From: Arthrobacter sp. NEB 688
GTDB lineage: Bacteria; Actinomycetota; Actinomycetes; Actinomycetales; Dermatophilaceae
Direction of reading: 5' to 3'
DNA: 64,000 bases
Assembly: GCF_013201035.1 (NCBI RefSeq)
Contig: NZ_CP053707.1
Span: forward strand, 2,170,001-2,234,000
Shown: positions 17,484 through 30,514 of the stretch, one piece after another
How positions within the stretch are numbered: the stretch's first letter is position 1
How the letters are laid out: each line of letters opens with the position of its first letter
Program-made: the position numbers and the translations under genes
The notes under the pieces: generated by a model
What the model was told of the DNA's origin: nothing
Databases searched by the model: none
The model's input: only the letters and a program-made list of their open reading frames with translations

Positions 17484-18259
17484 TCACCGCCGAGATCCCC
17501 GTGACCCCGGCCGCCCCGGCGCCGCCGGTCCTCGCCCGACGGGCCTGGGTGGAGCACGTGATGGGGACGGCCGTGAGCATCCACGTACGGGCCGTCGAGC
17601 CGACCCGCCCCGACATCGAGGCGGCGGTGCGGCGGGCGTTCGCGCACCTGCGGCGGGTCGACGCGGTGTTCTCGACGTGGCGGGCGGACAGCGACCTGCT
17701 GCGCCTGCAGCATCACGAGACCGACGAGGTCCACGCATGGGTGGCCGACGTCGTCGAGCTGTGCCTCGAGGCCGAGGAGCGCACCGACGGGCTCTTCTCC
17801 GCCTGGCGCGGCCGGGCGGACGGGCGCACCGTCTTCGACCCCACCGGCCTGGTCAAGGGCTGGGCCGCGGCCGGCGCCGCCGAGCACCTCGCCGTCGTGC
17901 CCGAGATCGCCTACAGCCTCGGGGCCGGCGGCGACGTCGCCGTCGGGGTGGGCCCCGGGCCTTCCGCGGCCGCCCCGACCTGGCGGATCGGCCTCGAGGA
18001 CCCCCGGCACGCGGGGCGCGTCGCCGACGTCGTCGCCGTGCGCCGCGGCGGGGTCGCCACCTCCGGGGCGGCGGCGCGCGGGGCCCACGTCGTCGACCCG
18101 CGCACCGGGTGGGGCGTCTCGCGCCCCGGCTCGTGCACCGTGGTCGGGCCCGACCTCACGTGGGCCGACGTCTGGGCGACGGCCGCGTGGGTGGACCCCG
18201 AGCGGGTCGCCCGCCTGCTGCCCGAGCGCGACCCCGAGTACTCCCTCATCGTCCTCTGA
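17480..18259 (+). CDS. apbE: FAD:protein FMN transferase
   Basis: ApbE transfers FMN from FAD to a Thr of target proteins; here the obvious target is the FMN-binding protein encoded just upstream. The 259-residue protein has the family motifs MGTAVSIHV, FSTWRADSDL, DPTGLVKGWA, SLGAGGDVAVG, VATSGAAARG and HVVDPRTG. It is short (families often exceed 300 residues) and has no visible lipobox, so it may be cytoplasmic or non-classically located. GTG 17480 overlaps the preceding TGA, which shows translational coupling. Confidence 0.9.
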   Translation: MITAEIPVTPAAPAPPVLARRAWVEHVMGTAVSIHVRAVEPTRPDIEAAVRRAFAHLRRVDAVFSTWRADSDLLRLQHHETDEVHAWVADVVELCLEAEERTDGLFSAWRGRADGRTVFDPTGLVKGWAAAGAAEHLAVVPEIAYSLGAGGDVAVGVGPGPSAAAPTWRIGLEDPRHAGRVADVVAVRRGGVATSGAAARGAHVVDPRTGWGVSRPGSCTVVGPDLTWADVWATAAWVDPERVARLLPERDPEYSLIVL

Positions 18260-18696
18260 CGAACCGTAGGTGCCTGTCCCGCACGGTTGTCCACCGGCGC
18301 AGGATGCCCCTGCCGCCGGCGTCCCGCCGCTGCTATGTTCGACGGACCACGCCGGGCTTCAGCAGGGGGTCCCGGCTCGAGCCACAGGCTGGGTCATGGT
18401 CCCATCGCAGCTCCGCGTGCCACCCGTCCGCAGCCGTCGGCTCCGGGTGCACGCCTCGGTAGGGCGTTCGTCGTGCCGGCCGCTGCGGCGGTCCGCCGGT
18501 CGTGTGGTCCCTCGGAACCCGGCGGGTCCCGCGGCGTCGCCGCGGGGTCCGTCCGATCCGGCGCCGGTCGCCCACGGGTGGCTGCAGCGCGGGTCGGCGG
18601 GCGCCGGGACGGCGGTGGCCGCGCCGAGCGCCGGTCGCCTTCCCTCTGTGCCTCCCGGCGTCCGTGGCCCCGGCCCCGGGCACCCCACGCCCTCGC
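18260..18696. other. 437-bp stretch without a convincing gene
   Basis: Overlapping frames are open here, but their codon use is poor and they resemble no family I know. A TATGTT at 18333-18338 could be a plus-strand -10 element. A perfect 8-bp hairpin (CCCGCGGC, loop GTC) lies at 18528-18546. The stretch is downstream of both neighbours (apbE on plus, the DUF255 gene on minus), so a small RNA or degraded gene is possible. Confidence 0.4.
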
Positions 18697-20688
<1,992 letters not shown>

Positions 20689-20694
20689 CACCCC

Positions 20695-20700
20695 ACCGTA
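20695..20700 (-). promoter_or_regulatory. -10 element of the DUF255 gene (leaderless)
   Basis: On the minus strand TACGGT matches TANNNT and ends six bases before the ATG at 20688. Confidence 0.5.
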
Positions 20701-20790
20701 CGGCCGGGGCGCCCTGCCGTTGACCGGACCACCGCCGTGGGAGGAGCATCCCCACCAGCCGCCCGCACGGGTGTCGGGGACGGAGCAGCG

Positions 20791-21153
20791 ATGACGGGGG
20801 AGACGCGGACCGCGGTCCGGCCGGCACGGATGGTGCTGGCGGCCGCGCTCGCCGGCGGTGTCGTGGGCGTCGTGCTGACGGTCGAGGCCGGGGCCACCCT
20901 CGGGCGCGGCGACCGGTCGACCGTCGAGCGGGCCACGGTGGACTCGGTCGAGGACGGCACCGGGGTCGTGTGCCTGCGGCGCGACGACGGTGACGTCGTC
21001 GACTGCCATCCCTCCGCCGTCCCGGGGCTGCGGGCCGGCGACCTCGTCGACTACGTGCTGACCCCGGCAGCCGTGGACGCGTCGCAGCCCGGCAGCGGCA
21101 CCGTCGACGTCATCACCTGGGCACGTCGTCGGGCCGGCGCTGGGCGGCGGTGA
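20791..21153 (+). CDS. Small membrane-anchored hypothetical protein
   Basis: The 120-residue protein has one N-terminal transmembrane segment ([18 protein letters not shown]). A domain of about 80 residues follows, likely outside the membrane, with two Cys in [17 protein letters not shown] that could pair or bind a ligand. GGAG lies upstream of the ATG. I do not recognise the family. It diverges from the DUF255 gene and precedes a flavin-fold gene by 59 bp. Confidence 0.6.
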
Positions 21154-21212
21154 CGAGGTCGTGCAGGCATGCTGGAGGCGAACACCGCCGACTGCCGATC
21201 GAGGAGACCCCC

Positions 21213-21632
21213 GTGCCCAAGGCCCCGATGCCCCAAGACGTCGCCGAGCTCTTCCGCCGGCCCAACCCGGCGGTCGTCGCGGTCCTGCGGCCGGACGGCT
21301 CCCCGATGTCCGTCGCGACCTGGTACCTCCTCGAGGACGACGGCACCGTCCTGCTCAACATGGACGCGGAGCGGGCGCGCGTGGCGTGGATGCGCGAGCG
21401 GCCCGAGGTCGCGCTCACCGCCCTCGAGGAGGGCAACTGGTACACGCACGTGAGCATCCGGGGCCGCATCGTGCGATGGGAGGAGGACCCGGAGCGGGCG
21501 ATGGCGGACATCGACCGGCTCTCGAACCTCTACGGCGGGCAGGACTACCGGGTGCGCGACCGCCGGCGGATCAGCTGCTGGGTCGAGGTCAGCCACTGGC
21601 ACGGCTGGGGCGGGGCCAAGGCCGACCGATAG
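21213..21632 (+). CDS. Pyridoxamine 5'-phosphate oxidase-fold (split-barrel flavin/F420) protein
   Basis: The 139-residue protein has the split beta-barrel pattern [28 protein letters not shown], then [14 protein letters not shown] and GRIVRWEED. This is typical of the PPOX/F420-dependent class common in actinobacteria; whether it binds FMN, F420 or heme is not clear. The GTG at 21213 has a GAGGAG site at suitable distance. An upstream frame from 21150 lacks such a site. Its last 88 bases overlap the end of the converging adenylation-domain gene in antisense. Confidence 0.8.
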
Positions 21633-24211
21633 GCCACGCGCCCTGACGGGGACACCGCGCTCGGGCCCTGCCGGGCCGCGGTGACGAGGCGCGACCACGC
21701 GGACGTCACCGGACCGGTCCACAGCCACCAGTAGGCCAGCCCCGCGGCGGTGCCGAGGACGAGCCCGAGGACGGGTCCGTGCTCGGGCAGGCCCCACGTC
21801 CACTGGAGCACCTGCCAGTGGGCGACGTAGACGAACAGCGAGGCCGACGCGAGCACGCGCGCCACGGGCACGACGGGCCCGGGCAGCCGGACGGTGGGGA
21901 CCCAGAGCAGGGCGAGGACGCACGCGAGGGTCAGCCCGTCGCGGGACGGGTTGCCGGAGAACGTCATCACCATCGCGGCGGACAGGGCCGACAGGGCGAG
22001 CCGCTGCCCGACGGAGGTCGCGCGGGCCAGCGCCCAGCCGAGCAGGACGAGGTGCAGGACGACGAGCGCGGCGCCCTGCATCCGCGGGGTCGGCAGGTCG
22101 AGCACCGGCAGGCGGAATGCGACGAACGCGGTGACGGAGAGCCCGACCGGCAGCAGCAGGGGGTGACGCCGGTCCAGGGCCGTGACCCGGGGCAGGCGCA
22201 CGAGCAGGCCGATGCCGACGAGCGCGACGAGCAGCGCCTCGACGAACCAGAAGCGCCACGGTGGCCCCAGGTGCTCGGCGCCGAGCGCCCAGTTGAGGAG
22301 GACGAGGTTGCGCGGGGCATAGAGGCCGAGGAGGAAGTGCGCGGCCCAGACGACGACGAGCGTCGGGACGGCCATCCGCAGGGCCGCACCGAGCAGCCCG
22401 CGGCTGCGCTCGCGGGGGTCGTCGGACGCGAGCTGGAAGCGCGCCAGCTGGTACCCGGCGACGACGAGGAGCGCGTTGGCGCTGCCCTGCAGGGTGAACA
22501 GGTGGGTGTGCGTCCCGACGACCAGGACGATGGCCAGCGCCCGCAGCGCCACGCTCGTCTCGACGGTGCGCCAGCGGGGGAGGCGCAGCCCCCCGGAGCG
22601 GACCGGGCTGCGGCGCACCGCGTCCAGCTCGGCGACGGTCATCAGGTGCCAGCCGCGCGGCAGGTGGCCGAGCAGCTCCTCGAGCCGGACGGAGACCTCG
22701 ACGAAGGAGAGCGAGTCGCCGCCGAGCGAGGTGAAGGTGCTGCCCGGCCCGACCTCGCGGTGGAGCAGGGCCGCGTACAGCCCGGCCACGCCCGCGTCCG
22801 GGGCGGCGGCCGGCTCCGCGGCGTCCGGGGGAGCGGCCAGCCCCAGGACGGCTCGGTGGTCGGGCTTGCCGGAGGGCAGCAGCGGGTGGTCCTCGACCGC
22901 GACGACGCGCACCGCGTCGGCCGGGACGCCCGAGGCGAGGACCGCCGACCGCCGGACCCGTTCGCGCGCGGGCGCCGACGACGCCCCGCGGGACGAGAGC
23001 GCGAGGAGCCCGTCGCGCCCGGCGACCCGCACGTCGTGCCCGTCGGCGCGCAGGCGTCGCTCGACGGTGTCGAGGTCGACCCGGTGGCCGAGCACCTTGA
23101 CGAAGCGCGCCCGCCGACCCGTGACGCGCAGCAGCCCGTCGGGCGTGACCTCGCCGAGGTCCCCCGTGCGCAGCTCGTCGACCGTGCGGCCGAGCGCGAG
23201 GTCGGCCGGGGTCTCGGCGTAGCCGAGCATGACGTTGGGGCCGCCGTAGACGATCTCGCCGTCGTCGATGCGCACCGACCCACCGGCCACCGGCGTGCCG
23301 ACGCAGTCCGGGTGTGACTCGACGAGATCGGCTGCGAGACACGCCATCCGCGCCGTCGCCTCGCACTGGCCGTACATGACCACGAGGTCGAACCCGCGCT
23401 CGCGACCGAGCCGGGCCACGCGTCGCACACGCTCGGGGTCCATCCGGCCGCCGGCCTGGGTCAGCTGCCGCAGCGTCGGCAGCGACCGCTCGGCGAACCC
23501 GCTGCGCTCGAGCAGCTCGAAGGTGTGGGGGACGCCCGGGACGGTCGTGACACCGGCCGCGCGGGCCTGCTCCCAGAAGCAGTCGTCGACGACCGAGCGG
23601 TCGGTCAGGAGGACGGACGCGCCCGCGTCGAGGTGCGAGAGCAGCACCGAGAGGCCGTAGCAGTAGCTGAGCGGCAGGGTGAGGGCCGCGACGTCGTCGG
23701 GGCGCACCCCGAGCGCCGCACGCACCTGGGCGGTGTTGGCGACGAGGTTGCGCTGCGAGAGCCGGACGAGCTTGGGCGAGCCGGTCGAGCCGCTCGTGCT
23801 CATGAGCAGCGCGAGCTCGGGGTGCAGGTCGTGGGCGCTGCGCTCGCGGACGACCTCGACCCCGCCGGCCCCGAGGACGACGTCGGGGTCGTAGGCGTCG
23901 GCCAGCGCGCGGGCGGGGCGCCCGGGGGCCGACAGCAGGACCACGTGCCCGGCGGCCCGCGCGGCGACGAGCTGGGCGACGCTCGCCACGGTGCTCGAGG
24001 CCCGGACGTGCACGAGCGAGCGGCCGCGCGGCAGCAGGGCGACGACCTCGGCGGCGCGCGCCGCGAGGTCGGCGTACGAGAGCGCGCCCTCGGCCGTGTG
24101 CAGCGCCGTGCGCCCCCCGAGGGCGGCCATCCGTCCGAGGTCGACGCCGTCCGGCGAGAGCGTCGGCGACGACGTCCCGGGCAGCGGGGCGGTGGCGAGC
24201 AGGGTGGGCAC
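21545..24211 (-). CDS. Adenylation - carrier protein - membrane acyltransferase fusion
   Basis: The 888-residue protein is a one-chain activation and transfer system. Residues about 1-455 form an AMP-ligase domain with STSGSTGSPK (P-loop), YGQCEAT, RTGDLGE and a closing LPSGKPDH with the catalytic Lys. Residues about 470-535 form a carrier domain with LGGDSLSF, Ser500 being the predicted phosphopantetheine site. From about residue 555 there are eight to ten membrane segments beginning VALRALAIVLVVGTHTH, like Acyltransferase_3. This suggests an acyl or aminoacyl group is activated, tethered and passed to a membrane or extracellular acceptor. An IdeR/DtxR-type iron box lies just upstream of the ATG, so iron limitation probably induces it. 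The substrate is unknown. Confidence 0.8.
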   Translation of the reverse strand: MPTLLATAPLPGTSSPTLSPDGVDLGRMAALGGRTALHTAEGALSYADLAARAAEVVALLPRGRSLVHVRASSTVASVAQLVAARAAGHVVLLSAPGRPARALADAYDPDVVLGAGGVEVVRERSAHDLHPELALLMSTSGSTGSPKLVRLSQRNLVANTAQVRAALGVRPDDVAALTLPLSYCYGLSVLLSHLDAGASVLLTDRSVVDDCFWEQARAAGVTTVPGVPHTFELLERSGFAERSLPTLRQLTQAGGRMDPERVRRVARLGRERGFDLVVMYGQCEATARMACLAADLVESHPDCVGTPVAGGSVRIDDGEIVYGGPNVMLGYAETPADLALGRTVDELRTGDLGEVTPDGLLRVTGRRARFVKVLGHRVDLDTVERRLRADGHDVRVAGRDGLLALSSRGASSAPARERVRRSAVLASGVPADAVRVVAVEDHPLLPSGKPDHRAVLGLAAPPDAAEPAAAPDAGVAGLYAALLHREVGPGSTFTSLGGDSLSFVEVSVRLEELLGHLPRGWHLMTVAELDAVRRSPVRSGGLRLPRWRTVETSVALRALAIVLVVGTHTHLFTLQGSANALLVVAGYQLARFQLASDDPRERSRGLLGAALRMAVPTLVVVWAAHFLLGLYAPRNLVLLNWALGAEHLGPPWRFWFVEALLVALVGIGLLVRLPRVTALDRRHPLLLPVGLSVTAFVAFRLPVLDLPTPRMQGAALVVLHLVLLGWALARATSVGQRLALSALSAAMVMTFSGNPSRDGLTLACVLALLWVPTVRLPGPVVPVARVLASASLFVYVAHWQVLQWTWGLPEHGPVLGLVLGTAAGLAYWWLWTGPVTSAWSRLVTAARQGPSAVSPSGRVAYRSALAPPQPCQWLTSTQQLIRRRSRTR

Positions 24212-24224
24212 GGCGGACAGTCAA

Positions 24225-24243
24225 TAAGGTTAGGCACACCTAA
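24225..24243. promoter_or_regulatory. Iron box 1 (IdeR/DtxR type)
   Basis: TAAGGTTAGGCACACCTAA matches the iron-box consensus TWAGGTTAGSCTWACCTWA at 17 of 19 positions. It lies 14 bp upstream of the fusion gene's ATG at 24211, within its promoter region. Ferrous-iron-loaded IdeR/DtxR would repress from here. Confidence 0.8.
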
Positions 24244-24323
24244 CGCAACACGAGATCGTGTGACGGGCCTCGCGGCCGGGGGTGGTCGTGGGCACGGCCA
24301 TCGCTCCGTTACGCTGGTCCGAG

Positions 24324-24342
24324 TTAGGCAAGCCTTCCCTAC
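24324..24342. promoter_or_regulatory. Iron box 2 (IdeR/DtxR type)
   Basis: TTAGGCAAGCCTTCCCTAC matches the same 19-bp consensus at 15 positions and lies 20 bp upstream of the GTG of the iron-binding lipoprotein. Together with box 1 it suggests co-regulation of the two divergent units. Confidence 0.7.
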
Positions 24343-24361
24343 GCACACGGAGGAACCTTCG

Positions 24362-25393
24362 GTGAGACGCCGGGCCCTGTCCGCCACCGCCGCCGCGCTC
24401 GTCGCGCTGCTGGGCCTCGCCGCCTGCGGCGAGAGCACGCTCGAGGCCGGTGACGACCTCGACTCCTCGAAGCTGACGATCTACAGCGCGCAGCACAAGA
24501 ACCTCACCGAGGAGTGGGGCCAGGAGTTCCAGGAGAAGACCGGCATCGAGGTGCAGGTCCGCTACGGCAACGACTCCTCGATGGGCTCGCAGATCGTCCA
24601 GGAGGGCGCGAGCTCGCCGGCCGACGTCTTCCTCACCGAGAACTCCCCGGCGATGACGACCGTCGAGCGGGCCGGGCTGCTCGCCCCGGTCGAGGCCTCC
24701 ACCCTCGCGCAGGTCGAGCCGGGCTACGCGCCCTCGTCGAAGGACTGGGTCGGCATCGCCGCCCGCTCGACCGTGCTCGTCTACAACCCCTCGAAGATCG
24801 CCGAGAAGGACCTCCCGACCTCGCTCATGGACCTCGCCGACCCGAAGTACGCGGGCCAGTGGGGCGCCGCGGCCGGGGGCGCCGACTTCCAGGCCATCGT
24901 CTCCGCGGTCCTCGCGACCGAGGGCGAGTCCAAGACCGCCGCCTGGCTCGACGCGCTGAAGAAGAACGCGAAGGTCTACCAGAACAACATCGCGACGATG
25001 AAGGCCGTCAACGCCGGGCAGTCCTCGATGGGCGTGATCTACCACTACTACTGGTACCGCGACCAGGCGCTCAACAAGTCGGGCAGCGGCAACACCAAGC
25101 TGCACTACTTCAAGAACGAGGACCCGGGCGCCTTCGTCAGCCTCTCCGGCGGCGCCGTGCTCAAGAGCAGCAAGCGGCAGGCCGACGCCCAGAAGTTCCT
25201 CGCGTTCGTCACCTCCCAGCAGGGCCAGCAGGCCCTCGGCACGACCGCCTCCAAGGAGTACGCGGTCGGTCGGGACGCCGCCTCCGACGCCGCGCTGCCG
25301 CCCCTCGACACCCTCGAGGCGCCGGCCATCGACCCGTTCACGCTCAACGGCCCCGAGGTCATCTCGCTCATGACGAAGGCCGGTCTGCTCTAG
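24362..25393 (+). CDS. Iron(III) ABC transporter substrate-binding lipoprotein
   Basis: This FbpA/FutA-like receptor binds ferric iron outside the cell. The 343-residue precursor starts at a GTG after a GGAGGAA site. It has a signal ending in the lipobox LAAC and continues with LTIYSAQHKNLTEEW. The consecutive Tyr residues in IYHYYWYRDQAL correspond to the iron-ligand Tyr pair of the family. The first gene of a three-gene importer operon, it sits behind an iron box. Confidence 0.9.
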   Translation: MRRRALSATAAALVALLGLAACGESTLEAGDDLDSSKLTIYSAQHKNLTEEWGQEFQEKTGIEVQVRYGNDSSMGSQIVQEGASSPADVFLTENSPAMTTVERAGLLAPVEASTLAQVEPGYAPSSKDWVGIAARSTVLVYNPSKIAEKDLPTSLMDLADPKYAGQWGAAAGGADFQAIVSAVLATEGESKTAAWLDALKKNAKVYQNNIATMKAVNAGQSSMGVIYHYYWYRDQALNKSGSGNTKLHYFKNEDPGAFVSLSGGAVLKSSKRQADAQKFLAFVTSQQGQQALGTTASKEYAVGRDAASDAALPPLDTLEAPAIDPFTLNGPEVISLMTKAGLL

Positions 25394-26989
25394 GTGTCGA
25401 CCACCGCGCCCGTCACGACGCCGACCCCCACGCCGGGGTCGGCGTCGACGGCGTCCCCGCGTCGCCGCCGGCCGGGCGCGGGGAGCCCGGGCCTGCGGCT
25501 CGGCGCCGCGCTCGTCGCCCTCGTCTGCCTCCTGCCGCTGGCCGTCGTGGCCCTCAAGGCGTTCGAGGCCGGGCCCTCCGAGGTCGCCGCGCTCCTCTTC
25601 CGCCCGCGCGTCGGCGAGCTGATGCGCAACACCCTCGCGCTCGTCGCCCTGACCGGCACCCTGGCCACGGTCCTCGGCGTCGGTGCGGCGTGGCTCGTCG
25701 AGCGCACGAGCCTGCCGCTCGCCGGCCTCTGGCGGGTCCTGTTCGTCGCGCCGCTGGCCATCCCCGCGTTCGTCAACAGCTTCGCCTGGTCGACCGTCCT
25801 CCCGGGTCTCGAGGGCCTCTGGGGCGCCGTCCTCGTGACGACGCTGTCGTACTTCCCGTTCGTCTTCCTGCCGGTGGCGGCGATGCTGCGCTCCGCCGAC
25901 CCCGGGCTCGAGGAGGCCGCGCGCGCCCTCGGCCTCGGCCCGTGGCGCACCGCGGCCAAGGTCGGTCTGGCACAGGTGCGCCCGGCGCTGCTCGGCGGCG
26001 TGCTGCTCGTCGCCCTGCACCTCCTCTCGGAGTTCGGCGCCCTCGAGATGCTCCGCTTCCCGACCTTCACGACGGCGATCCTCGACCAGTTCGACGTCGC
26101 CTTCGACAGCCGCTCGGGCAGCGTCCTCGCCCTCGTCCTCGTCGGCCTCGCCGTCGCGCTGCTCACCGTCGAGCTCCTCGCCCGCGGTCGCACCCGGTAC
26201 GTCCGGGTCGGCTCGGGCGCGGCCCGCCGCCCGGCGCGCGCGCGGCTCGGCCGGGCGACGCCGCTCGCGCTGCTCGCCGTCATCGCGCTCGCCGTCCTCG
26301 CGGTCGGGGTCCCCGCGTGGGTCACGGGCTCCTGGCTCACCCGCCCCGAGGAGGCGCTCGAGCCGACGGTGCTCTGGCCCGCCCTCTGGTCGACGGTCCG
26401 GCTGGCCCTCGTCGCGGCGATCGTGACGACCCTCGCCACGCTGCCCGCCGCGTGGCTGCTGGCCCGGCGCCGGACGTGGTTCGGCGTCCTCGTCGAGCGG
26501 GTCAGCTACCTCGCGTCGTCGGTGCCGGGCGTCGTCGTCGCGCTCGCGCTCATCACCCTCTCGATCACCTGGGCGCGCTCGCTCTACCAGACCTCCGCGG
26601 TGCTCGTCCTCGCCTACGTCGTGCTCTTCATCCCGCGGGCGATGGTCTCGACGCGCGCCGCCGTCGCCGCCGTGCCGCCCGAGCTCGCCGACGCCGCGCG
26701 CTCGCTCGGCGACGGGCCGCTGCGCACCTTCGTCCGGGTCCAGCTGCCGCTCATGCTGCGCGGCACCCTGGCCGGGACGGCCCTGGTCGCCATCGCCGTG
26801 TCGACCGAGCTCACCGCGACCCTCCTGCTCGCCCCGACCGGCACCCAGACCCTCTCCACCGCGTTCTGGGAGGCGAGCGCCTCCCTCGACTACGCGGCCG
26901 CGGCGCCGTACGCTGCCGCGCTGGTCCTCCTGTCCGCACCCCTGACCTGGCTGCTGCTGCGCAGCGGCCCCGAGGAGCACACCCCGTGA
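25394..26989 (+). CDS. Iron(III) ABC transporter permease (two fused permease domains)
   Basis: The 531-residue FbpB-type protein has about twelve membrane segments. Two BPD_transp_1 halves each contain an EAA-like loop, LEEAARALGLGPWRTAAKVGL and LADAARSLGDGPLRTFVRVQL. It starts with GTG directly after the receptor's stop, and its own stop overlaps the ATPase start. It forms the membrane channel of the ferric iron importer. Confidence 0.92.
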   Translation: MSTTAPVTTPTPTPGSASTASPRRRRPGAGSPGLRLGAALVALVCLLPLAVVALKAFEAGPSEVAALLFRPRVGELMRNTLALVALTGTLATVLGVGAAWLVERTSLPLAGLWRVLFVAPLAIPAFVNSFAWSTVLPGLEGLWGAVLVTTLSYFPFVFLPVAAMLRSADPGLEEAARALGLGPWRTAAKVGLAQVRPALLGGVLLVALHLLSEFGALEMLRFPTFTTAILDQFDVAFDSRSGSVLALVLVGLAVALLTVELLARGRTRYVRVGSGAARRPARARLGRATPLALLAVIALAVLAVGVPAWVTGSWLTRPEEALEPTVLWPALWSTVRLALVAAIVTTLATLPAAWLLARRRTWFGVLVERVSYLASSVPGVVVALALITLSITWARSLYQTSAVLVLAYVVLFIPRAMVSTRAAVAAVPPELADAARSLGDGPLRTFVRVQLPLMLRGTLAGTALVAIAVSTELTATLLLAPTGTQTLSTAFWEASASLDYAAAAPYAAALVLLSAPLTWLLLRSGPEEHTP

Positions 26990-28041
26990 CCGCTCTGCGC
27001 CTCACCGGCATCACCGCGTCGCACCCGCGCACCCCGGTGCTGCACGGCATCGACCTCACCGTCGCGTCCGGGACGACGACGGCGGTCCTCGGGCCCTCGG
27101 GCTGCGGCAAGACGACCCTGCTGCGGGTCGTCGCGGGGTTCATGCGGCCCGAGGCGGGGGAGGTGCGCATCGGCGACGAGCTCGTGGCCGGCCCCGGCAC
27201 CTGGGTGCCCCCGGAGAAGCGCGGGTTCGGGTACGTCGCCCAGGAGGGCAACCTCTTCCCGCACCTCGACGTCGCGGCCAACCTCTCCTACGGGCTGCCG
27301 CGCCGTGAGCGCCGGGCGCGCGAGCGGGTCGCCGAGCTCCTCGAGCTCGTGGGCCTGCCCGCCGGGACCGCCTCCCGCCGCCCCGACCAGCTCTCCGGCG
27401 GCCAGCAGCAGCGCGTGGCGCTCGCCCGGGCGCTGGCCCGCCGCCCCCGCGTCGTGCTCCTCGACGAGCCCTTCTCGGCCCTGGACCCCGAGCTGCGCGC
27501 CGCCACCCGTGAGGCCGTCGCCGCCGCGCTGGCCCACGAGGGCGCGACCGTCGTCCTCGTCACGCACGACCAGGCCGAGGCGCTCTCGTTCGCCGACGAG
27601 GTCGCGGTCATGCACGAGGGCCGGCTCAGCCAGGTCGGCGCGCCGTCGACCGTGTACCGCTCGCCGGCCGACCGCCGCTCCGCGCTCTCGCTCGGTGAGG
27701 CCTGCTTCCTGCCCGGGACGCTGGAGGCCGGGGTCGTGCGCTGCGCGCTCGGCGACCTGCCGGCCGACCGCCGGGCGGCGGCCGGCCCGGTCGAGGTGAT
27801 GATCCGCCCCGAGCAGCTGCGCCTGGCCGACCCCGGGACCGCCACCTCGGCCCCCACCGGCGAGGTGCGCCACGTCGCGTACTTCGGCCACGACGCGCTC
27901 GTCGAGGTGCACCTGGACACCGCCGACGTGCTCGTGCGCGCGCGGACCTCGCACACGCCGCCGCCCCCCGTGGGCGCACGGGTCGAGGTGACCGTCGACG
28001 GCCCGCCGCACCTCCTCGCGGCCGGTAGCGCCACCGGCTGA
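26986..28041 (+). CDS. Iron(III) ABC transporter ATP-binding protein
   Basis: This FbpC-type ATPase of 351 residues has Walker A (GPSGCGKTT), a Q-loop in [11 protein letters not shown], signature LSGGQQQR, Walker B ([13 protein letters not shown]) and the H-loop (VTHDQAEAL). A C-terminal TOBE-like regulatory region follows. GTG 26986 overlaps the permease TGA. It powers ferric iron import, and the operon is predicted to be iron-repressed. Confidence 0.93.
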
Positions 28042-28168
28042 CCGGACACGATCCGGACACCGACCCATCCGGTCGGGCGGTCGGCTCCGAACGTTCGGTA
28101 CCCGCGCCACCCGATCCCCCTGCGGGCACGACGACGTGTCCGGTCGGTGGGTGCAGGAAGGACCGTCG

Positions 28169-30514
28169 ATGACGACCGCCCCGACCTCCCGCACCTCCTC
28201 GTCCGCCGCCGAGGGGCCACCGGACCGCCCCGGCGTCAGCCGGCGCCGCCTCATCGGCTGGGTCCTCGCGAGCGGCACCCTGGCCGTCGCGGCCGACCTG
28301 TCGACCGGCGCCCCGAGCGCGTCCGCCGCGGTCCCCAGCCCGCCGCAGGTGCCCGAGCTCTTCGACCTCGGTGACCTGCAGACGAACTCGGCGCTGCCCA
28401 CCTCGCAGCTCATCCGGATCGACCTCGACGAGGACGGCATCGCCCACTTCGCGATCCCGCGGATGGAGGTCGGCCAGGGCATCACGACGGCCGCGGCGAT
28501 GATCATCGCCGAGGAGCTCGACCTGCCCGTCGACCGCGTCCGGGTCACGCTCGCACCGGCCCGACCGGAGCTGGTCTTCAACCAGCTGACCGGCGGCTCG
28601 AACACGATGCAGTCGATGTTCACGCCGATCCGCGTCGCCGCCGCCACGGCCCGCGGCGCCCTCCTGCGGGCCGCCGCCACCGAGCTCGGCGCCCAGCTCT
28701 CGGCGCTCACCGCGAAGGCCGGCGTCGTCACCGCGCCGACCGGGGCGAGCCTCACGTACGGGCAGCTGGCCACCCTCGCCGCGAGCACCGAGGACGTCGC
28801 GGTCGAGGTCTCGCTGACGCCGCGCCGGGAGTTCTCGGTCATCGGCACCTCGTACGGCCGCGACGACGCGGTCGCCGCCGTCACCGGCCGCAAGCAGTTC
28901 ACGATGGACCTCTTCGTCGAGGGCGCGCTGCCGACGATGGTCTGCCGCCCGCCGACCCTCAACGGCTCGCCGCGCGCGGTGCTCAACCTGGCCACCGTGC
29001 GCGCGATGCCGGGCGTCACCGACGTCGTCACCGTCGACACCGGCGTCGCCGTGCGCGCCGCGACCTTCGGGCAGTGCATCGACGCCGTCCGCGCGCTCGA
29101 CGTGCAGTGGAACGGCGGGCCGGTCGACGGTGAGGACGACGAGTCGGTCCTCGCCGAGCTGCGCCGTGCCGAGCTGCCGATGGTCGTGCCCAAGGTGCCG
29201 ATCCTCGCGAGCACGCTCGACCTGCGGTTCGAGTTCATGTTCCGCAGCAGCGCTGCGCTGGAGCCGAACTGCGCCATCGCGGACGTGCGCTCCGACGGCG
29301 CGACGGTCTGGGCCGGGCTCAAGGCACCGCTCGTCGCGCAGCGCAACGTGGCCCGTGCGGTCGGCCTGCCGATCTCGAAGGTCACCGTCAACGTCGTCAC
29401 GGGTGGAGGCTCGTTCGGGCACAAGCTGTTCGGCGACGCGGCCATCGAGGCGGCCAAGATCTCGAAGGCGATGGGCAAGCCGGTCAAGCTCATGTGGCAC
29501 CGCGCCGACGAGCCGCGCCAGGGGCGCACGCACCCGATGGCGACCTCCCGCGTGCGCGCGACGATGCTCGCGGGCCAGGTGCTGACCTTCGAGCAGCGGC
29601 ACACCAGCGTCGTCACCGACTTCGGTCACGGGCTGGGGGAGCGGCTGACCGCCCTCGCCGCCGAGCTGCCCGCCAACCTCGGCGGGCTCAGCCTGTCGCA
29701 GTCGATCTTCACGCTGACGCAGGAGCTGCCGTACAACTTCGGCGTCGTCACGCAGCTGCTCAACGAGGTCGACACCCGGTTCAACACCGGCAGCATGCGC
29801 AACATCTACAGCCCGGACGTCGCGTGCGCCAACGAGCTCGCGGTGGACCAGATCGCCAAGCGGCTCGGCAAGGACCCGTACGCGTTCCGGATGTCCTTCC
29901 TCAAGAACGCCAAGGCCAAGCGGTGCCTCGAGGCGGTGGCGAAGGCGGGCGGCTGGGGCCGGTCCCTGCCGAAGGGCGTGACCCAGGGCATCGCCGTCCA
30001 CACCGAGTACAAGGGCGCGACCGCCGTGCTCGTCGAGCTCGACACCCGCCCCGAGACCGTGAACCGGACCATCCGCGAGGCCGTCACCGGTCCGCGGGTC
30101 ACCAAGGCGGTCATCGCCGTCGACGCCGGCCTCGTCGTCAACCCGCGCGGACTGGAGGCCCAGATGATGGGCGGCGTCGCCGACGGCATCGCGCTCGCCC
30201 TCACGAGCAGCAACCACCTCAAGGACGGGCACTTCCTCGAGGCGAGCTGGGACAACTACTTCTACACGCGGCAGTGGAACGTGCCGCCGGAGTTCCGGTG
30301 CCTCGTCATGCCCTCCGACGAGGAGCTGCCCGGTGGCGCCGGCGAGGCCGGGGTCGCAGCCTCGGTCGCCGCCGTCGCGTGCGCCTACGCCCGCGCGACG
30401 GGCAAGGTCCCGACCCGCTTCCCGGTCAACCACGGGACGGTCTCCTTCACCCCGAAGAGCTTCGTCCCGCCCGTGCCCGCGTCCCCCACCGACGGCCTGT
30501 CGTACACCTCCTGA
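28169..30514 (+). CDS. Molybdenum hydroxylase large subunit (xanthine dehydrogenase family), Tat-exported
   Basis: The 781-residue subunit binds molybdopterin cytosine dinucleotide. The N-terminus has a twin-arginine signal ([13 protein letters not shown]), so the folded complex is predicted to be exported. Family features include [15 protein letters not shown] near the mature N-terminus, [10 protein letters not shown] and the C-terminal GGAGEAG, whose Glu matches the catalytic residue. It resembles isoquinoline 1-oxidoreductase/aldehyde dehydrogenase type enzymes, with only a small iron-sulfur partner and no FAD subunit. The ATG follows a GGAAGGA site. The substrate is unknown. Confidence 0.88.

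Follow-up and report, generated by a model that had tools for sequence, protein, structure and literature searches.

The window analysed here is a stretch of 64,000 nucleotides from the genome of Arthrobacter sp. NEB 688 (contig NZ_CP053707.1, positions 2,170,001 to 2,234,000 of the forward strand; Dermatophilaceae in the GTDB lineage). On its minus strand lies a gene for a single protein of 888 amino acids in which an adenylation domain, a carrier domain and a membrane domain of Acyltransferase-3 type follow one another. The gene diverges from the genes of an FbpABC-type ferric iron transporter, and predicted iron boxes lie between the two. The protein may be an iron-starvation enzyme that delivers a small carboxylic acid to the outer face of the membrane, where the product would capture iron for the transporter.

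One chain with adenylation, carrier and membrane acyltransferase domains

The open reading frame (ORF) has a GTG start at 24211 and a stop codon ending at 21545. The features of the protein are as follows.

21545..24211, minus strand: one-chain adenylation-carrier-Acyltransferase-3 protein, 888 amino acids (ORF reading, Pfam and 84 full-length aligned rows)
22832..24139, minus strand: adenylation (ANL) domain, residues 25-460 (Pfam AMP-binding, model, invariant Lys449)
22865-22867, minus strand: catalytic Lys449 of the adenylation domain (K449 in 84/84 rows)
22667..22777, minus strand: carrier domain match, residues 479-515 (Pfam PP-binding)
22712-22714, minus strand: phosphopantetheine Ser500 of the carrier (S500 in 84/84 rows)
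21674..22573, minus strand: Acyltransferase-3 membrane domain, residues 547-846 (hhalign, HGSNAT model match, R-X10-H)
22541-22543 and 22508-22510, minus strand: Arg557 and His568, the R-X10-H motif (84/84 rows)

Pfam places AMP-binding at residues 57-331 (119 bits) and PP-binding at residues 479-515 (22.3 bits, against a cut-off of 20.8); neither an SGNH domain nor a condensation or release domain was found by Pfam in the 888-amino-acid chain. The first part has the fold, the P-loop motif and the C-terminal catalytic lysine of the ANL enzymes (PF00501), and its model superposes on members of that family with Z scores of 32.9-34.9 in the rows listed. The second belongs with the carriers (PF00550), the GGDSL-type serine that takes phosphopantetheine being S500.

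Conservation was read from an alignment of 84 full-length rows, 83 of them distinct (L093 is the same as L014), after L019, which carries only the adenylation domain, had been left out of 85. All rows share K449, S500, R557, H568, G586, G725 and Y795, and 82 of them have S791. A homolog in Phycicoccus jejuensis has 89% identity. Matches at E <= 1e-60 occur in 67 of 186 genomes of the family and in 71 of 394 genomes of the class; the family lists (these 67 genomes, and the 52 of 186 with a close FbpA discussed below) were compiled by hand from match listings. An earlier, sequence-only reading of this DNA had proposed that one protein joins activation, carrier and membrane transfer, with Ser500 and the catalytic lysine intact. 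The Pfam matches, the invariant residues and the fold of the membrane domain bear this out, and both catalytic residues are found in every aligned row.

The membrane domain

By Pfam, the membrane part is a marginal case: Acyl_transf_3 (PF01757) aligns to residues 556-829 with 9.2 bits, under the cut-off of 31. Among nine homologs scanned, one (L017) lies above the cut-off with 41 bits, six score 24-28.8 bits and L121 scores 18.2, and in L119 no PF01757 match was found at E <= 1. Profile comparison is more telling. This genome has twelve Acyltransferase-3 matches; when the membrane part of ten proteins was compared by hhalign with eight of them, the probability was 95.3 and the E-value 2.2e-8, and the Arg-His motif of helix 1 and the Tyr-His region at the C-terminal end both lined up. 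The R-X10-H motif of Acyltransferase-3 proteins, as described in PMC9833829, is present in helix 1 as R557 and H568 in all 84 rows.

Modelled alone, the membrane part forms ten helices with a predicted local distance difference test score (pLDDT) of 86.6 and a predicted TM-score (pTM) of 0.86. In a VIA second look it superposes on HGSNAT with Z 14.8 over 262 residues (root-mean-square deviation 4.7); mostly helical models can score Z 14 by arrangement alone, and the hhalign result is independent support. In the VIA structural ranking, eight HGSNAT rows come first (Z 13.0-14.8, over the whole domain), GWT1 follows (Z 9.8-10.2) and the best unrelated row reaches 7.0. The leading ten rows all come from one superfamily, in which HGSNAT, GWT1 and Acyltransferase-3 have been united (PMC12423673). 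Foldseek with the membrane model alone gave no match at E <= 0.001. MBOAT, the family of DltB, gave no Pfam match at E <= 10, an absence from the list that excludes nothing, and the fold match is to TmAT. The predicted structure has the ten helices of the TmAT fold, and the Acyltransferase_3-like part after residue 555, which the sequence-only reading had preferred to an MBOAT, is upheld by the structure prediction as well as by hhalign and R-X10-H.

At the positions of residues that contact coenzyme A (CoA), the homologs differ in part from other Acyltransferase-3 proteins. The RXXR motif of helix 3 is present in 8/8 controls from the same genome, whereas positions 609, 610 and 613 are without Arg in the 84 rows. 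The start of helix 3 is rich in Arg (position 599 in 54/84 rows, 602 in 80/84 and 604 in 67/84) and may be a counterpart of RXXR. The helix-1 Asp position (554) is acidic in 0/84 rows and the helix-2 Phe position (581) is Phe in 0/84. These differences are suggestive only. An adaptation from CoA to carrier through loss of CoA-gripping residues is not claimed here, as the Arg-rich start of helix 3 may replace RXXR and R557 is kept.

The substrate pocket

The solved sequences nearest to the adenylation domain are VinN (PDB 3wvn, which we take to be VinN), oxalate-CoA ligase and LgrA. In VinN, an Asp binds the amino group of the substrate. Here the position of this amino-anchoring residue is Cys184, an assignment that follows the VinN alignment (with LgrA, the phmmer alignment is displaced by two residues at this point), and it is occupied by C in 70 rows, V in 9 and S in 5, never by Asp. 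The anchoring Asp that marks amino-acid-activating adenylation domains, such as those of nonribosomal peptide synthetases (NRPS) and DltA, is thus missing. Because the position is Cys, Val or Ser in 84/84 rows, a D-alanine-like substrate appears unlikely. The sequence-only reading had left room for either an acyl or an aminoacyl load; the acyl half stands and the aminoacyl half is weakened.

That reading had also proposed extracting the specificity residues. Ten positions (184, 185, 188, 226, 251, 253, 279, 287, 288 and 449) were mapped by motif and presumably correspond to those of the NRPS specificity code. Their mean majority share is 0.946, against 0.636 for the whole adenylation domain, and 0 of 20000 random sets of ten reach this conservation, a contrast that overstates selectivity since several of the positions sit in core motifs. 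R288 is invariant. Such conservation suggests one common substrate, and together the observations point to a small acid other than an amino acid, whose identity the data do not give.

On plasmids of Roseateles sp. XES5 and Shinella (L121:739-5660 and L173:1447-5544), a homolog follows 5-oxoprolinase genes (pxpA, oxoprolinase and biotin carboxylase), and L121 also has a gene for an NRAMP-type metal transporter. These neighbours hint at a possible pyroglutamate-like substrate; both gene orders look like one lineage.

Linkage to a ferric iron transporter

The transporter genes diverge from the gene, whose other neighbour in the window encodes a DsbH-like protein.

24362..25393, plus strand: FbpA-like ferric iron binding lipoprotein with lipobox LAAC (SBP_bac_6, 82.6 bits in a longer frame; start codon inferred)
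25394..26989, plus strand: FbpB-like permease (Pfam BPD_transp_1, two stretches)
26986..28041, plus strand: FbpC-like ATPase (ABC_tran, 115 bits in a longer frame; start inferred)

The gene was followed through 98 loci, taken mostly from the top of match lists rather than at random and including 6 of 103 plasmid records; 97 of them are distinct (L014 and L132 are the same contig), and L019 carries only the adenylation domain. FbpA and FbpB both lie within 4.5 kb of the gene in 68 of the 98: the gene and the transporter are divergent in 27, the gene comes first in 24, the transporter comes first in 13 and the two are convergent in 4. These arrangements rest on FbpA and FbpB, the FbpC orientations being unreliable (one FbpC query is a shadow frame of FbpC). 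On a FastTree tree of 96 loci, at least 12 changes of arrangement are needed among the linked loci, and 15 changes between paired and unpaired states. On a plasmid of Rhodococcus fascians, the gene runs 4 bases into the FbpA gene; on one of Mycolicibacterium crocinum the order is opposite, and it is the FbpC gene that overlaps the gene by 4 bases.

Co-occurrence points in the same direction. A close FbpA (at least 400 bits) is found in 52 of the 186 genomes of the family, and the gene is present in 49 of these 52 vs 18 of the 134 others (Fisher p 5e-26, a value that ignores kinship). In one genus (g44), ten genomes hold both gene and FbpA, which lie apart in seven and within about 3 kb of each other in three. 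When neighbouring genes were clustered in 52 loci, the only clusters present in more than ten loci were FbpA, FbpB, and FbpC or its shadow frame. The neighbourhood thus ties the protein to ferric iron uptake, a subject that the sequence-only reading had left out of its interpretation (low iron was named only among its checks). As the target, that reading had proposed a surface glycan, a lipid or a secreted small molecule, any of which may apply.

Iron boxes

Both of the following sites lie inside the 150 bp between the gene and the divergent fbpABC genes.

24225..24243, minus strand: predicted DtxR/IdeR-type iron box, 13 bases upstream of the start codon of the gene (1 mismatch)
24324..24342, plus strand: second, weaker predicted iron box, facing the ferric transporter genes (3 mismatches)

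At up to 3 mismatches, 0.07 matches would be expected in the window. Compared with the 19-bp operator consensus TTAGGTTAG(G/C)CTAACCTAA (PMC1382209), the site upstream of the gene agrees at 16/19 positions, as is expected of a DtxR/IdeR operator. The whole genome holds three sites at up to 2 mismatches, against 0 for a reversed control pattern; the other two stand immediately ahead of the gene for a Peripla_BP_2 binding protein and of a BFD-domain gene with a ferritin gene behind it. In the same region (18000-30000 of the window), no riboswitch or other RNA was matched in Rfam at gathering thresholds.

The box recurs among the homologs. A score of at least 13/19, a cut-off picked after the scores were seen, is found upstream of the gene in 49/52 loci vs 1/323 other ORF starts of the same loci. 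Sorted by arrangement, the 98 loci show a box at the gene in 27/27 divergent, 21/24 gene-first, 4/13 transporter-first and 4/4 convergent loci; in the transporter-first group, a box stands before FbpA in 6/13. It is also kept in 25 of the 30 loci that lack an FbpA and FbpB pair (seven of the 30 have a partial Fbp match) and in 18 of the 23 that show no match to any Fbp protein. The iron link therefore belongs to the gene itself. At the level of sequence, the domains, the intact catalytic residues, the iron boxes and the linkage are established.

Proposed mechanism and alternative explanations

Under low iron, a DtxR/IdeR repressor would leave the box at 24225-24243 and the gene would be expressed. 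The adenylation domain would then activate a carboxylic acid, small and polar and probably other than an amino acid, and load it on the phosphopantetheine of Ser500. With the carrier placed where the Acyltransferase-3 pore opens to the inside, the arm could reach through, and His568 would assist in transferring the acyl group to an outer-face acceptor. An arm-through-pore route has been described for acyl-CoA (PMC9833829; PMC12423673), and the fused carrier would replace CoA in it. The product would be a conjugate outside the cytoplasm that binds iron(III); it could be secreted as a minimal chelator or collect iron as an ester at the surface, and FbpA would take the iron from it. Since an iron box of its own precedes the gene and a ferric transporter tends to be encoded nearby, bringing Fe3+ to FbpA is the likeliest use of such a product. 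Activity, topology, the direction in which transfer runs and the binding of a repressor are inferred here, and so, most of all, is the identity of the acid, acceptor and product. Taken as a whole, the proposal that an iron-starvation enzyme supplies an acceptor at the outer face with a small carboxylic acid, and that FbpABC uses the resulting iron-capturing product, is tentative, at somewhat less than even confidence.

A more specific form of this proposal is doubtful. The protein would be a one-protein factory for a siderophore or ferric ligand, in which an ordinary metabolic acid is activated and moved across the membrane, and the ligand is made and exported for FbpABC in one step. If true, this would be a siderophore-like mode of synthesis, beside the NRPS route and the NRPS-independent siderophore (NIS) route, that is spread through actinobacteria. 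IucA/IucC synthetases (PF04183), which belong to NIS synthesis, were not found in this genome and occur in 28 of the 186 genomes of the family. The possibility that the gene substitutes for NIS siderophores or depends on them was rejected, as it is present in 10 of these 28 genomes, which is the chance level (Fisher p 1.0).

Several observations weigh against the iron-capture proposal. FbpA-type proteins are generally regarded as binding Fe3+ with no need of a siderophore, and the activity, acceptor and product of the protein are all hypothetical. The residues assigned to the pocket were located by motif matching, and the model is uncertain at 283-285. The genome shows a single PF01648 match, with the size of AcpS (a frame of 131 amino acids; G000:C1:3991839-3992090, L129), and the carrier may need priming by AcpS. 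No FbpA and FbpB pair lies nearby in 30 of the 98 loci, and 18 of the 67 gene-bearing genomes are without a close FbpA. Eight linked loci have no box of at least 13 at either gene. Five unlinked loci also lack one, namely three proteobacterial plasmids, L019 and L069. The plasmids scored for a DtxR-type box were L121-L123 only, and its absence there says little because proteobacteria mostly use other iron regulators. FbpABC was not found among the annotated neighbours of the proteobacterial homologs (five annotated loci; the record of H12, L123, is unannotated), and iron therefore need not be the ancestral role.

Among the other explanations, a Dlt-like remodelling of the envelope is rather unlikely. 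Under low iron, the enzyme would esterify a glycan or lipid of the wall or membrane, and the changed charge or permeability would let Fe3+ reach FbpA with no chelator involved. Activation, carrier and membrane transfer do come in the Dlt order, biosynthesis genes were not seen to recur as a set beside the gene, and known Acyltransferase-3 proteins mostly acylate extracytoplasmic sugars (PMC9558356); however, the neighbours that recur in more than ten loci are those of the transporter only (smaller clusters being identified in part), and the chain has no SGNH domain in Pfam. Improbable, in our view, is a secondary metabolite, signal or antibiotic, unrelated to iron capture, with a gene that merely responds to iron status. 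The 30 unpaired loci and the proteobacterial homologs without annotated Fbp-kind iron uptake neighbours would fit such a product, but the transporter has stayed adjacent through the 12 or more changes of arrangement, and 49 of the 52 genomes with a close FbpA hold the gene. That the acyl group goes to one of the uptake proteins, such as the lipoprotein FbpA acylated on the outer face, is very improbable despite the lipobox and the tight linkage in four arrangements, given the boxes kept without the pair, the 18 genomes without a close FbpA and the sugars that are mostly the acceptors of known Acyltransferase-3 enzymes (PMC9558356).

Should the iron link in the iron-capture proposal be causal, many actinobacteria would have an uncharacterised route of iron acquisition, and detection of siderophores by NRPS or NIS genes would miss it, including in genomes without PF04183 such as this one. 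The fusion of activation and carrier to a membrane pore would also offer a self-contained system for studying how a tethered acyl group crosses a membrane.

Comparison with known systems

The Dlt system consists of DltA, DltC, DltB and DltD and carries out D-alanylation of teichoic acids. As in Dlt, an acid would be activated with ATP, held as a carrier thioester and transferred across the membrane, in that order. Unlike Dlt, the protein is one chain rather than several, appears to have an Acyltransferase-3 fold in place of an MBOAT, lacks the amino-anchoring Asp and comes with iron boxes and FbpABC linkage. There is no dltABCD cluster: the neighbours in the window are FbpABC and the DsbH-like protein, and the recurrent ones are FbpABC. 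The likeness to Dlt drawn by the sequence-only reading holds for order and logic only; in view of the Cys184 position, a D-alanine-like substrate is unlikely.

With Acyltransferase-3 and TmAT proteins (OafB and OatA; HGSNAT and GWT1), the membrane domain shares ten helices, R-X10-H, S-X3-Y in helix 9 and the HGSNAT fold match. It differs from them in the adenylation domain and carrier fused in front, the known proteins taking acyl-CoA (PMC9558356; PMC9833829; PMC12423673), and in the Phe of the helix-2 F-X4-G motif, which is Leu or Met in 84/84 rows. The Acyltransferase-3 fusions described in the available parts of PMC9558356, PMC7448272 and PMC12423673 are AT3-SGNH, AT3-racemase and NRF-AT3, and an adenylation-carrier fusion is not among them. 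NRPS-like adenylation-carrier proteins (VinN-type, aryl or acyl acid ligases) have the same ANL fold and adjoining carrier; unlike them, the protein has no condensation or release domain in Pfam, and the membrane acyltransferase would take over the release step. The neighbouring transporter has the three standard parts of FbpABC systems, whereas a companion acyl-transfer enzyme was not found for described FbpABC systems in the literature searched. The literature matches listed describe neither the one-chain architecture nor the gene beside FbpABC, most subscription journals and all preprints lying outside the search. The parts are of known kinds; their combination in one chain with iron control and FbpABC was not found described.

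Other neighbours and outlying homologs

Beyond the transporter in the window, a gene for a molybdopterin cofactor-binding (xanthine dehydrogenase-like) protein adjoins it at 28136-30514 on the plus strand. Smaller neighbour clusters were identified only in part; those present in five to nine of the 52 loci include MFS, thermolysin, DciA, hydrolase, Pup/proteasome, citrate synthase, aminotransferase and VanW. Two clusters have no Pfam match, a 190-amino-acid protein (9 of the 52 loci) and a 96-amino-acid protein (5). In L075 and L078 (L078:9898-10467), the former is encoded on the strand opposite to the gene, directly upstream of it.

In five loci of one genus (L015, L058, L059, L061 and L064), the gene and its iron box are unlinked from Fbp and lie amid Pup-ligase and proteasome genes. 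On Rhizobium etli p42e (L122:8671-12201), a homolog with an AMP-binding match, and with carrier and acyltransferase matches that stay under their thresholds, is encoded next to a helix-turn-helix regulator; this locus has no DtxR-type box and no annotated iron transporter. In Nonomuraea sp. (L019:9638-13508), a related adenylation domain lacks the membrane part, and genes of the LuxE and LuxC families come after it; these neighbours form an acyl-activating and reducing set.

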